Source of the DNA: Verrucomicrobiaceae bacterium
Lineage (GTDB): Bacteria; Verrucomicrobiota; Verrucomicrobiia; Verrucomicrobiales; Verrucomicrobiaceae
Reading direction: 5' to 3'
DNA: 64,000 bases
Assembly: GCA_019694165.1 (NCBI GenBank)
Contig: JAIBCL010000002.1
Location: forward strand, 248,001-312,000
Position numbers and translations under genes: made by a program. The number at the start of each line of letters is the position of its first letter. Position 1 is the first letter of the stretch. This document shows positions 34,086-39,053 of this stretch, in pieces. The notes beneath the pieces are model-generated. The model was not told where the DNA came from and searched no databases. It worked only from the letters and a program-made list of their open reading frames with translations.

Positions 34086-34185
34086 GGGGGCGAGGCTAGC
34101 GCGCTGCAGGCGCTTGGAAAGGACGGAATAGCACCGGCATTACAGCTTGTCACGCTGCCTGAGGATTGGTAGGAATTTGCCCGTC

Positions 34186-37100
34186 ATGCCCGAAGGCCCT
34201 CCACCAGGCTCCACACCCACAGGCTACCAGCGCACGCAGGGCGGCGGCGTGGCGTGGTCGCCGCCGAGCGCGGCGCATTTGGAGCAATTGCTCCCGCAGT
34301 ATCACGTCGAGTGCCTGCTCGGGCGCGGCGGCATGGGCGCGGTTTACAAGGGCTTGCAGAAGTCGCTGGAGCGGCCCGTGGCCATCAAGATTCTGCCGCC
34401 CGATCTCGACGACGCCGACGCGAGCTACACGCAGCGTTTCAAGAACGAGGCCAAGCTCATGGCAAAGATGAACCATCCGGCCATCGTGCATGTGTACGAC
34501 TACGGCGTGATCGATGGCAGGGCGCTCGCCGCAGGTAGGGCGCTTGCTCCTGCAAGCGCCGCCGGGACGCCCCCAGCCTGCGATGCCACGAGAGACGATG
34601 GGGACGGCTCCCGGCCTGCCGCGGCGGCTGGAGGACCAGCCGCCCCACCTTCCGGCCCGCCGCTGTTCTACTTCGTCATGGAGTTCGTCAACGGCACCGA
34701 CGTGCAGCAGATGATCCAGGCGCAGGGCCGCCTCCCGCCCGAGCACGCACTGGCCGTCACCGCGCACGTTTGTGATGCGCTGAAGTATGCGCACGAGCAC
34801 GGCGTCATCCACCGCGACATCAAGCCGGCCAACGTGCTCATCAACATGGAGGGCGCGGTGAAGGTGGCCGACTTCGGCTTGGCGAAGGCCAGCGACGGCG
34901 GCACCACCGGCATCACCAAGACCGGCATGGCGATGGGCACGCCCGATTACGTCGCGCCCGAGGCGCTGGTGATGGGCGTGGATGTGGATGCGCGTGCCGA
35001 CGTTTATGCCGTGGGCGTGATGCTCTACACGATGCTCACCGGCCATGTGCCACGCGGTGCGTTCAAGCCGCCGTCGGTCATGGTGCCTGGAGTGGACCGG
35101 CGCTTCGACGCCATCGTGGAGCGTGCGATGCAAATGAACCGCGACGAGCGCTACCCGGGCGCCGCGCACATCCGGCGTGATCTTGATGCCATCCTTACCG
35201 CACCGCAGGTGCAGGCCGGAGGGCAGAGCAGCGCCGCAGTGCCGCGGCAGGTCGTGGCGCAGAAGCCCGTGTCCAAAGGACCGCAGAAACCGATGGGCAA
35301 GAGCGCGAACGTGCCGGTGGACGGCAGGCGCGTTCGCCAGAACGCGGAGGAGGCTGCCGGCACCCCGGACCGCACTCTGGCGAGTGCGCCTACGGGCAAG
35401 AGCAAGACGCCTCTGCTCATCGGCATCGGAGCCGTCGCCGCCATCGCGGTGGGGGCGTTTGTGATGATGGGCGGCGAGGGCAGGCGCGTTCGCCAGAACG
35501 CGGAGAGCGCCGCCACCTCAAGCGGAATTCCCTCCGGGGCTGCGCAACTGGCGAGTTCCCCTACGAGCAGCGCCAAGCCCATCAAAGTGCGCGAGGAGCC
35601 GAAGCCAGCCGTCGCGCCCATCTCAAATTCCAAATCGCCGATCTCAAATCCCGCCCCGGCAAAACCCACGGACCAAACTCTGGCGAGTTCCCCTACGAGC
35701 GGCGCTGCCGCGAAGGACAAGTTCCCTCCCGGCCAGTGGGTGAAGGTGTTTACCAAGTTCGAGGACTTGCCTGCGGAATCTCGCCGTGACGGGAAACGCT
35801 GGATATTCGACAACGGTTGGCTGCAACACACACCAGGGGTTGAAACGGGGATCACCGCCTATCTGGAAGAACCCATGTTCAAGAACGTGGGCGTTCGTGC
35901 TCGCGTTCGAGCGCAAGGCCGCGCAATTGGCAGCGTGACCCTGCGCCGACCCGACAACAACGGCCCTTTATTCGGCAACCTGCGATTCAAGGTGACCCGC
36001 TTGGGAGACGGGCAAGGCAATTTCGTTGTGGACTACGTTGCATCTGAGAATTCGACATCGTTCACGGAACTTGTCTCACGTCCCTTTCAACGCAGCGCCA
36101 CCGATGAGGAAACCGTCGAATATTGGGCCTACGAATCGAAGCTGTTCTGGCGTTTGGCTGATCAACCGATCTCGACGGTGAAAATTCCCGCCGTGGTCAG
36201 TGGTCGGGTGGGTTTCTATGGTGATGCGGCCTTCCGCGACATCGAAGTCATCAACCTCGACGGCATCCCCGAAGCCGAGGCGATGAAGCTGATTGGCGTT
36301 GATGAGAAGGGCAATGATCTGCGCGGGGCGGGCCTGGCTGGTAGGGCGGCTGGTCCTCCAGCCGCCGCGAGCGGCCCCGCGATGACGAATGCTGGAAACG
36401 CACCCGCCCCGGCGAACGCGGCGCTTGGAGGACCAAGCGCCCTACCTTCCGCTGGCTCCGCCTCCTCTTCTCCCAGCCCCCCTGTCTCCAAGTCTTCAGC
36501 GGAGAAGTTCCCTGCCGGCAAGTGGGTGGATATCACCGAGCCGTACCTGCGCGACAACCCAACGCTCCAACGCGGCAGCGACGGCTGGATAAAGGTGGTC
36601 CCAGGAAACAACAAGAAGCCTGACGTGCGATGGACGAACGGCGGCGTGAGGCTGAGTCGCCGCTGGGAACTGTCGGCTGCCAGCAATCAAGCCCAAATCT
36701 CTCTCAATGGCCCAACTGGGCAGTTCAACCTTAGCCTCGACAACTCCCCCCGATACCGGCTTTGGAAACAAGCGGGCGCAAATACTGACCTTTTGCCCAC
36801 GCCCTCGCTTTCGAAAGAAGACTATCAAGGAATCATCACTCTGGAACTCGTTCGAATCGGCGACCATCTCGCGGCGAGAGTCAATCAACGCCTCCATTTC
36901 CTCGCACTCAAACCCGATCAATTGGAGGCAACCGTATCGCCCCACACTTATTTTGGCTCCTCGGGCTCGTCCATCCGCGACATCGAAGTCATCAACCTCG
37001 ACGGCATCCCCGAAGCGGAGGCGCTGCGCATCCTCGGCGTGGATGACAAAGGCAACGACACGCGGGCTGCTGCGCTGGCTGCGGAGAAGAAGGCGTTGGA

Positions 37101-39018
37101 ACAGCAGCGGATGGCGCAGACCATCAACAGCGTTTCGGAACTCGCCGATCTCCAGAAGCGCATGGACGCTCTCACGCAGGAGCGCGTGACCGGGCCGTTT
37201 GAGGCAGGCATAAAGCAGCTCGATGCAAGCTACTCCGCCGCGCTCGACCGCGAGATCGCCCCCCATCAGAAAGCTGGCGATCTCGATGCCGTGCTCGCCA
37301 TGCAAAACGAAAAGAAGCGTGTGGCCGCAGGCGAACCGCTGCTCGGCGATGACACCACCGATCCACCCGCGCTCAAGCCCCTGCGCAACACCTACCGCAC
37401 CGCCGTCGCCAACCTCGACGCCACGCGCGCTGACAGTCAGAAGACGCTCACCGAGCAATATGACGCTGCGCTCAAGAAACTCGAGACCGACCTCACCAAG
37501 CAGAACCGCATCCAGGACGCCGCAACTGTGCGCGCCGTGCGCGAGTCGCTCGGCAAGCCATCTTCCGCTGCCGAGGAAACGCCCAAAACCGCGCCGCCAA
37601 AAAGCGGTCTCCTCACGCAAACGAAACCCACCACGGCCAAGAAGGGTAAGTCCGCCAAATACAGCCCCAACCTCCCGCCGCCCGAACCCATTCCCGCCGC
37701 CCTGACCGAAAAACCGCCGCGCCCGCAATACACAAAGGAACTCGCCGCCTGGGCGCTGTCGCTGCCCGAAGGCAGCGTGCGGATACGCATCGGCAAACAA
37801 GCCAAAGGCCTCAGCAACAAGAACGGCGACAAACTGCCGGCGGAGAAATTTGAATTGCTCAATGTGGAGGTGGGCGCAGACCTGACCGACAAGCCAGACA
37901 TCAAATCCGAGTGGCTGCTGGGGCAGACCGATTTGGAGAACCTGAGGCTCGATGGCAGCACGTTTTCAGATTTCTCGGTTCTGCGAGGCATGAGCCACCT
38001 CTCCGTTCTTTCTCTCAGACCCGACGGCAAAGCCAAGTGTGGCGTCAACAGAACACCTGAAGCTTTCCGGCAGCTTCCGCTGCTCCCGGCAGTGAAGCGG
38101 CTTTTCATGCACGGCCCAATAGGAGACGAGGGAGTGCGTATTGTTTGCGAGCGGATGCCCTCGCTTGACGATTTGGGCTTTCAAGAAAGCGGTAAGATCA
38201 CCACCCTGGCGCCGCTCCAGCGTCTCGGATCACTCAAACGACTCGAGCTTCGCAACGAAGCCTCGTTTGCAAGATGTCTCAATGACCTCGCTCCCTTGCC
38301 GAATCTTGAAAAGCTGGAGCTGGCTGCGTGCATGGCCAAGAACGCGACGGATTGGGAATCGATCTCCACGCTCGCAAATCTTCGCGAACTCATTGTCGGC
38401 TTTGGCTCGCTGCCGTCGGCAGAGGCGTTGTCTGCCATGAAGCTGAGTCAGCTCCCGCATCTCGAAAAGCTGTCCATTGAATACAAGCCGGAGATGGGGG
38501 GTGATTCCAGCGGGCTCGGCACGATGCCTGGTCTGGTGCGCCTCGATTTGCATGGCACCAACAAGCCGAAATCCTTTTTCAGTTTCGTGATGAGCCTGCC
38601 GCCTCAGCCATCTCTGCAGGAAATGCGCGTCACGGATATTGCGGAATGGACGGACGATGACTTCGCTAAATTTGCCGAACGCTATGCCGGCCTCAAGACA
38701 CTGGACGTAATCGCTTCACGCAGCCTTACCGACAAAGCCGTGCAGTCCATTGCGGATAAGATGCCCGGCCTCACGAAGCTGGTGATGCACAAGACGCCAG
38801 TGACCGACGCGGTAGCCGTGCCGCTGCGCAGCCTGCGCAAGCTTGAAGAACTGGAGATCGGCGGCCCGAATCTCACTCCGCTGATCCTTGCCGAACTCAA
38901 GCACATGAAGAACCTCAAGAAGATGCGCATCGCCACCTACAACCTTCCGCAAAAGGCCGTCGACGATTTCAAGAAAGCCCGGCCCGACATCGATTTGAAC
39001 ATCGAGGTGATCAGGTAG
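34186..39018 (+). CDS. Large Ser/Thr protein kinase with duplicated beta domains, coiled coil and leucine-rich repeats
   Basis: The 1610-residue product starts at an ATG with TAGGAA upstream. A PknB-like kinase spans about residues 40-340: GRGGMGAVYKG (46-56), Lys68, HRD (209-211), DFG (229-231). A membrane helix (about 410-430) follows, then two similar beta domains (about 510-700 and 775-955), each ending RDIEVINLDGIPEAEA, a coiled coil (about 960-1130) and an LRR domain (about 1225-1610). The kinase faces the cytoplasm and the repeats the outside. Inside the gene there are several in-frame palindromic insertions, one within the kinase domain between beta4 and beta5 (about 117-155). The second beta domain resembles DUF1080-like folds. 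Confidence 0.9.
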   Translation: MPEGPPPGSTPTGYQRTQGGGVAWSPPSAAHLEQLLPQYHVECLLGRGGMGAVYKGLQKSLERPVAIKILPPDLDDADASYTQRFKNEAKLMAKMNHPAIVHVYDYGVIDGRALAAGRALAPASAAGTPPACDATRDDGDGSRPAAAAGGPAAPPSGPPLFYFVMEFVNGTDVQQMIQAQGRLPPEHALAVTAHVCDALKYAHEHGVIHRDIKPANVLINMEGAVKVADFGLAKASDGGTTGITKTGMAMGTPDYVAPEALVMGVDVDARADVYAVGVMLYTMLTGHVPRGAFKPPSVMVPGVDRRFDAIVERAMQMNRDERYPGAAHIRRDLDAILTAPQVQAGGQSSAAVPRQVVAQKPVSKGPQKPMGKSANVPVDGRRVRQNAEEAAGTPDRTLASAPTGKSKTPLLIGIGAVAAIAVGAFVMMGGEGRRVRQNAESAATSSGIPSGAAQLASSPTSSAKPIKVREEPKPAVAPISNSKSPISNPAPAKPTDQTLASSPTSGAAAKDKFPPGQWVKVFTKFEDLPAESRRDGKRWIFDNGWLQHTPGVETGITAYLEEPMFKNVGVRARVRAQGRAIGSVTLRRPDNNGPLFGNLRFKVTRLGDGQGNFVVDYVASENSTSFTELVSRPFQRSATDEETVEYWAYESKLFWRLADQPISTVKIPAVVSGRVGFYGDAAFRDIEVINLDGIPEAEAMKLIGVDEKGNDLRGAGLAGRAAGPPAAASGPAMTNAGNAPAPANAALGGPSALPSAGSASSSPSPPVSKSSAEKFPAGKWVDITEPYLRDNPTLQRGSDGWIKVVPGNNKKPDVRWTNGGVRLSRRWELSAASNQAQISLNGPTGQFNLSLDNSPRYRLWKQAGANTDLLPTPSLSKEDYQGIITLELVRIGDHLAARVNQRLHFLALKPDQLEATVSPHTYFGSSGSSIRDIEVINLDGIPEAEALRILGVDDKGNDTRAAALAAEKKALEQQRMAQTINSVSELADLQKRMDALTQERVTGPFEAGIKQLDASYSAALDREIAPHQKAGDLDAVLAMQNEKKRVAAGEPLLGDDTTDPPALKPLRNTYRTAVANLDATRADSQKTLTEQYDAALKKLETDLTKQNRIQDAATVRAVRESLGKPSSAAEETPKTAPPKSGLLTQTKPTTAKKGKSAKYSPNLPPPEPIPAALTEKPPRPQYTKELAAWALSLPEGSVRIRIGKQAKGLSNKNGDKLPAEKFELLNVEVGADLTDKPDIKSEWLLGQTDLENLRLDGSTFSDFSVLRGMSHLSVLSLRPDGKAKCGVNRTPEAFRQLPLLPAVKRLFMHGPIGDEGVRIVCERMPSLDDLGFQESGKITTLAPLQRLGSLKRLELRNEASFARCLNDLAPLPNLEKLELAACMAKNATDWESISTLANLRELIVGFGSLPSAEALSAMKLSQLPHLEKLSIEYKPEMGGDSSGLGTMPGLVRLDLHGTNKPKSFFSFVMSLPPQPSLQEMRVTDIAEWTDDDFAKFAERYAGLKTLDVIASRSLTDKAVQSIADKMPGLTKLVMHKTPVTDAVAVPLRSLRKLEELEIGGPNLTPLILAELKHMKNLKKMRIATYNLPQKAVDDFKKARPDIDLNIEVIR
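34534..34650. repeat. REP-like inverted pair inside the kinase domain
   Basis: A left unit has GTAG (34535-34538) followed by the stem GGCGCTTGC (34539-34547), loop TCCT, and GCAAGCGCC (34552-34560). A right unit in the opposite orientation has GGCGGCTGG (34623-34631), loop AGGA, CCAGCCGCC (34636-34644) and CCAC (34645-34648). Together they frame about 62 bp. The layout equals a BIME: two REP-type palindromes head to head. It codes an Ala/Gly/Pro-rich loop in the kinase between beta4 and beta5. Confidence 0.85.
35323..35394. repeat. Second-type REP-like inverted pair before the membrane helix
   Basis: The left unit has GCAG (35324-35327) and the stem CGCGTTC (35329-35335), loop GCCA, GAACGCG (35340-35346). 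The right unit is inverted: CGCACTC (35371-35377), loop TGGC, GAGTGCG (35382-35388) and CTAC (35390-35393). The gap is 24 bp. The loop sequence and stem differ from the TCCT-loop type, so this is a separate family. It is read in frame just N-terminal to the membrane helix. Confidence 0.85.
35480..35566. repeat. Second-type REP-like inverted pair after the membrane helix
   Basis: The left unit repeats that at 35323 almost exactly: GCAG (35480-35483), CGCGTTC (35485-35491), loop GCCA, GAACGCG (35496-35502). The right unit, inverted, is shortened (AACT-GGCG-AGTT, about 35546-35557) but keeps CTAC (35561-35564). It is in frame in the linker after the membrane helix. Confidence 0.75.
35671..35697. 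repeat. Single second-type REP-like unit
   Basis: An inverted-orientation unit with AACTC (35676-35680), loop TGGC (35681-35684), GAGTT (35685-35689) and CTAC (35693-35696). About 30 bp upstream, near 35620-35655, ATCTCAAAT occurs twice, which looks like another short AT-rich repeat type. No left partner is seen. Confidence 0.7.
36339..36449. repeat. REP-like inverted pair between the two beta domains
   Basis: The left unit is GTAG (36341-36344) with stem GGCGGCTGG (36345-36353), loop TCCT, CCAGCCGCC (36358-36366). The right unit, inverted, is GGCGCTTGG (36420-36428), loop AGGA, CCAAGCGCC (36433-36441), CTAC (36442-36445). The loops and the 9-bp stems match the pair at 34534, including the mix of GGC and GCT stem types. 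It codes a Pro/Ala linker (about residues 718-755). Confidence 0.88.
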
Positions 39019-39035
39019 GCGGATGCGTCCCGCCT
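39015..39035 (+). repeat. Single REP-like hairpin overlapping the kinase stop codon
   Basis: GTAG (39015-39018) supplies the TAG stop codon of the kinase gene and is followed by an imperfect hairpin GGCGGA-TGCG-TCCCGCC (39018-39034). It has the same GTAG-plus-stem layout as the other units and lies between the kinase gene and the convergent GyrA/ParC gene. Confidence 0.6.
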
Positions 39036-39053
39036 CGTGCCCTTTGGCCGCAA

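Follow-up and report, generated by a model that had tools for sequence, protein, structure and literature searches.

Palindromic units within a kinase gene

A bacterium related to Prosthecobacter carries, in the 64,000-nt stretch of its DNA analysed here (the window), a Ser/Thr protein kinase gene containing short GTAG-tagged palindromes, which raises the question of whether these are REP elements and how they came to be translated. The gene (34147–39018, forward strand) encodes 1623 residues comprising a kinase domain, a TM helix, repeated DIEVINLDG domains and an LRR region; among solved structures, M. tuberculosis PknB is nearest in sequence (6b2p, E 1.6e-55). An earlier note had claimed at least eight such units of two types, all translated. 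Sequence reading and an independent stem search recovered four intact type-A units (9-bp stem, loop TCCT), three intact type-B units (7-bp stem, loop GCCA) and a further two of type B that have decayed, every one of them read within the open reading frame; the end tags are GTAG, GTGG or GCAG.

The type-A units form two head-to-head pairs. The first begins with a GTAG-tagged unit (34535–34560, +; peptide GRALAPASAA) that opens an insert in the β4–β5 loop of the kinase domain (34517–34675, +; 53 residues, as measured in the paralogue L037, 99.9% identical across that stretch), and its GTGG-tagged partner (34623–34648, −; AAAGGPAAPP) completes a pair of 114 nt. The second, 105 nt long, lies in the linker behind the first C-terminal domain (36341–36366, +, GRAAGPPAAA; 36420–36445, −, AALGGPSALP). 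Type-B units surround the TM helix: one with a GCAG tag and loop GCCA in the linker ahead of it (35324–35346, +), its GTAG-tagged partner directly ahead of it (35371–35393, −) and another GCAG-tagged unit directly behind it (35480–35502, +). These data bear out the previously claimed pairs 34535/34623, 35324/35371 and 36341/36420, while the partner claimed for the unit at 35480 is recognisable by its sequence (35543–35566, −; direct-repeat family D4) and has lost its stem. The claimed single unit near 35671 is real, albeit with a stem reduced to 5 bp (decayed type B, 35672–35698, −).

Matches to the type-A pattern number 3 in the window, with 0.00 expected from 100 shuffles, and the stem search found neither type outside the kinase reading frame, in agreement with the claim that other genes of the window lack copies. 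A region around the stop codon (about 39014–39037; GTAGGCGG...) looks like a degenerate unit and received no support from the scans.

An AlphaFold model of the kinase domain, built on an alignment of four homologues from loci found by DNA search, has core blocks mostly at pLDDT 75–95 and residues 82–126 at about 25–40, the latter placed between β4 (73–79) and β5 (130–136). According to this model, the loop insert is most likely disordered and loops out from an intact kinase core.

Genome-wide copies and REP identity

Other genomic copies of both types, the search for which had been proposed as a check, proved to be many, intergenic as well as coding. Pattern matching with up to 3 mismatches returned 30 type-A and 14 type-B matches (none with reversed-pattern controls), and covariance models built from the units detected at least 95 type-A and at least 33 type-B units, these numbers being minimum values since each scan scored no more than 150 candidates. 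Neighbouring type-A units are head-to-head in 35 of 46 cases, with pair lengths mostly of 105–117 nt and a short class of 58–68 nt.

We identify the palindromes as REP elements organised as REPINs/BIMEs: they combine a GTAG-like 5′ tag, high copy number and inverted pairs with conserved spacing and, in type A, a cognate RAYT, which makes this type a full REP/BIME system with RAYT. REP copy numbers in E. coli or Pseudomonas exceed those found here. REPs are usually regarded as extragenic, being excluded from genes by selection, whereas about half of the present units are coding. Extragenic location is a descriptive trait of REPs; intragenic copies have already been counted as REPs (PMC3733652).

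The cognate transposase

The type-A RAYT (G000:C19:130315–130773, G000 being the source genome) is embedded in a type-A array (130027–131389) and shares 72% identity with the RAYT of P. debontii. It was identified via MAGs in which a RAYT sits between type-A pairs, and five named MAGs have this RAYT among such pairs. Close homologues occur in three further genomes (G001, G011 and G023), each likewise carrying type-A REPs; five weak type-A matches and no close RAYT were seen in G016, and the remaining 33 genomes searched have neither a type-A match nor a close RAYT homologue. The RAYT search suggested in the earlier note was thus successful for type A, whereas no cognate RAYT for type B was found among the Pfam Y1_Tnp candidates of the genome. 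The type-A RAYT is not among these candidates either, and those with recognisable palindromes represent other types.

As part of the explanation that we regard as very probable (see below), type-A REPs belong to this RAYT, a Y1/HUH transposase of the same genome, which would mobilise them.

Two further RAYTs, L021 (C57:131362) and L025 (C47:206967), are flanked by GTAG-tagged palindromes of their own (GTAGAACGA... and GTAGGCCGGG...), so the genome contains REP types beyond A and B.

Coding copies and their host genes

Each unit was called coding from an open frame and a codon-usage score on both sides, using a purpose-built codon-usage model; four calls (L108, L116, L122 and L129) were dropped as doubtful. 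This leaves about 65 of the 128 units found as coding and in frame, 44 of them spread over about 15 Ser/Thr-kinase paralogues and 21 residing in other genes. A procedure of the same kind called 3 of 20 units coding in the same-genus genome G001, all within one kinase gene, so it does not label everything coding. Of 144 type-A units in named Verrucomicrobiaceae MAGs, 18 are coding, and most of these lie in linkers of kinases.

Loops and linkers of a single large kinase family are the commonest location of coding copies; the source genome has about 64 kinase-domain matches for this family. The proposal that this family hosts coding REPs widening its linkers holds for the main host but not for a sole one, as pyrF, hrpA, hsdM and other genes carry them too. 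The HrpA-like helicase has a REP pair between its HA2 and OB domains, an alpha-2-macroglobulin carries its insert between TED and MG10, and in two DUF7133 proteins the inserts are at domain edges; the remaining hosts include PyrF, HsdM, a squalene-hopene cyclase family protein, TIR/NACHT-like proteins and WD40 proteins. HsdM carries in-frame type-A REPs at a matching place in two genera (L114, G000:C22:377409–377499; L203, G011:C13:841–898).

Empty sites and the origins of the inserts

Comparison with relatives and paralogues, another proposed check, revealed empty sites with clean borders in pyrF and in the kinase β4–β5 loop. In PyrF, the REP pair together with about 12 more residues makes up an extra stretch of about 50 residues that 29 aligned relatives lack. 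The kinase loop nearly always has 5–7 residues when it lacks REPs (11 in one case) and 27–66 residues in REP carriers; in the paralogue L089, its excess over the empty loop is 63 nt, the exact length of the REP pair. We observed neither protein-level conservation across distant relatives nor a lack of copies elsewhere in the genome, the two outcomes named beforehand as speaking against inserted REPs.

The loop inserts fall into at least three classes that differ in length (63, 68 and 114 nt) and reading frame. Their eight carriers are distributed over separate clades in a tree of kinase cores from which the loop was left out, requiring six changes, at least five of them forced by well-supported branches, and a single carrier clade, as expected from one ancestral insertion, is rejected by the AU test (p = 2.9e-5). 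REP inserts in the β4–β5 loop have more than one origin. For the long-insert group alone, comprising the window gene, L037, L042, L051 and L052, a single clade is not rejected (AU p = 0.053); as these inserts also have reading frame and spacer in common, gene conversion may account for part of the loop inserts. A kinase of another genome (G022:C301) that appeared to be split at the loop had been cut by a contig end. In L042 (6001–8565), GRALGE occurs three times ahead of GRALAPASAA, representing tandem partial REP copies that widen the loop.

The window gene also provides a trace of exchange between paralogues. Positions 34185–35778 are 99.9% identical over 1594 bp, five REPs included, to L037, located 39 kb away; the shared 5′ module covers the kinase, the TM helix and linkers, and the C-terminal halves are unrelated. 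This near-identity followed by complete divergence points to a recent module exchange, a process that also spreads REPs. The earlier reading of the kinase copies as insertions is supported, with the correction that part of their spread among kinases came from whole modules being duplicated or converted.

Proposed explanation and its alternatives

We consider it very probable that RAYT-linked REPINs insert in and between genes, are kept in loops and linkers, and have accumulated most in the kinases. REPs would insert between genes and within genes alike, and the survivors in genes would be those that are in frame, stop-free and located in loops or interdomain linkers; such inserts are presumably near-neutral and tolerated by the proteins. 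The kinase REPs would have arisen by repeated insertion combined with duplication or gene conversion, and the family would hold most coding copies because it is large, offers numerous loops and long linkers, and has paralogues that exchange modules.

Another account, in which one or a few insertions were followed by spread among the kinases solely through duplication and gene conversion, with no repeated transposition, agrees with the module shared by the window gene and L037 and with a 105-nt pair, read as GRAAGPPAAA...AALAGASALP, that recurs in linkers of many paralogues. We find it rather unlikely, as three insert classes unlike in length and frame occupy one loop, and the non-kinase hosts pyrF, hrpA and hsdM require insertions of their own. 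Ala/Pro/Gly-rich peptides such as those encoded by the REPs could also be ordinary low-complexity linkers whose palindromic look arose by chance; the same DNA, however, is found outside genes too, in either orientation and in several frames, reversed patterns have no matches, and the intergenic copies and RAYT arrays refute this idea almost completely.

Selection might instead have domesticated REPs as flexible Ala/Pro/Gly linkers, enriching the linker-like frame. Same-strand type-A units in genes occupy phases 1:0:2 in the ratio 22:5:0, phase 1 yielding GRAAGPPAAA-like peptides, all 18 coding units in named MAGs are in phase 1/2, and REPs lie on either side of the TM helix and between domains. 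The absence of phase 2 is expected, since it would read TAG as a stop, and the bias is only suggestive because paralogous units are not independent; besides, other phases are used in enzyme loops. Between the orthologues L040 and G001:C77 the hairpins remain paired, while the spacer is shorter and peptide residues are altered, so that the palindrome is retained as the peptide changes. We therefore doubt that such domestication explains the data. The intact stems themselves (9/9 pairs in 44 of 52 coding and 37 of 40 non-coding copies) could hint that translated hairpins are retained for a role in mRNA or ssDNA, for example mRNA stability or pausing, but recent insertion explains them equally well, and we regard this role as highly improbable. 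Insertion by RAYT-linked REPINs, supplemented by exchange among the kinases, remains our preferred explanation.

Relation to known systems

In-frame REPs as such are already known: intragenic GTAG REPs were reported in 2013 (Di Nocera et al., PMC3733652), being richest in Opitutus terrae, likewise a member of the Verrucomicrobia. Like the present units, they are GTAG palindromes that occur singly or as dimers in frame within genes, and their dimers or groups often encode 20–30 residues. That study stresses DNA repair genes, whereas here one kinase family and repeatedly one of its loops are involved, with about half of the found copies coding. The inverted doublets, conserved spacing and cognate RAYT correspond to REPINs/BIMEs (Bertels and Rainey 2011, PMC3116915); in P. 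fluorescens SBW25, however, 14 of 1067 such 16-mers overlap genes, compared with about 65 of 128 units here. Rickettsia palindromic elements are similarly found in frame in many unrelated genes, but those of R. conorii end with CGTC, in contrast to the GTAG, GTGG or GCAG of our units, and no dedicated transposase for CGTC repeats was found (PMC3733652). REPs of tnpA-REP subclass 2.4 are inserted frame-intact, as here, although their hosts are the transposase genes themselves (PMC6006769). In the literature searched, three features look new: the concentration on kinases, the recurrent occupation of one loop and a coding share of about 50%.

Such a genome amounts to a natural insertion-scanning experiment that marks loops and linkers tolerant of extra residues, and it shows a route by which proteins gain sequence from a mobile element. 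With the RAYT present and relatives retaining empty sites, REP movement becomes a testable question.

Transposase domains inside housekeeping proteins

Leucyl-tRNA synthetase (LeuRS) of the source genome (1135 aa; L139:4003–7407, G000:C22:232003–235407) contains a complete RAYT/Y1 transposase in mid-protein, in frame and with inverted palindromic ends. G006 also has a RAYT domain at this position of its LeuRS, and that domain has clearly diverged further than the LeuRS sequence around it. Other relatives with a match have an empty site: their matches are split into two flanks or lack the region. MetH carries in-frame Y1_Tnp domains at differing sites in two genomes (G022 and G031; L336:3–3506 and L337:3819–8426), and such domains are also present in HsdR (G006; L339:3504–7382) and an Eco57I-type methylase (G026; L341:2953–7818). 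Assemblies were taken as deposited; that the frames are open in several genomes speaks against an assembly artefact.

We tentatively speculate that REP/RAYT elements of Verrucomicrobiales may have an in-frame, intein-like lifestyle without splicing, in which housekeeping proteins such as LeuRS, MetH, RecG and HsdR would harbour, as lasting translated insertions, REPINs and also complete RAYT units bounded by palindromic ends. The host gene would shield the transposase, because any mutation that broke the frame would damage the host. In-frame RAYTs in LeuRS, RecG and MetH would extend the picture of translated insertions to the transposase itself.

In RecG helicase, a RAYT-like domain that gave no Pfam Y1_Tnp detection at 1e-5 is found in frame, at the same site and with inverted-repeat ends, in three genera (G015, L343:2758–5508; G012, L344:3129–5951; G009, L345:2914–5580).
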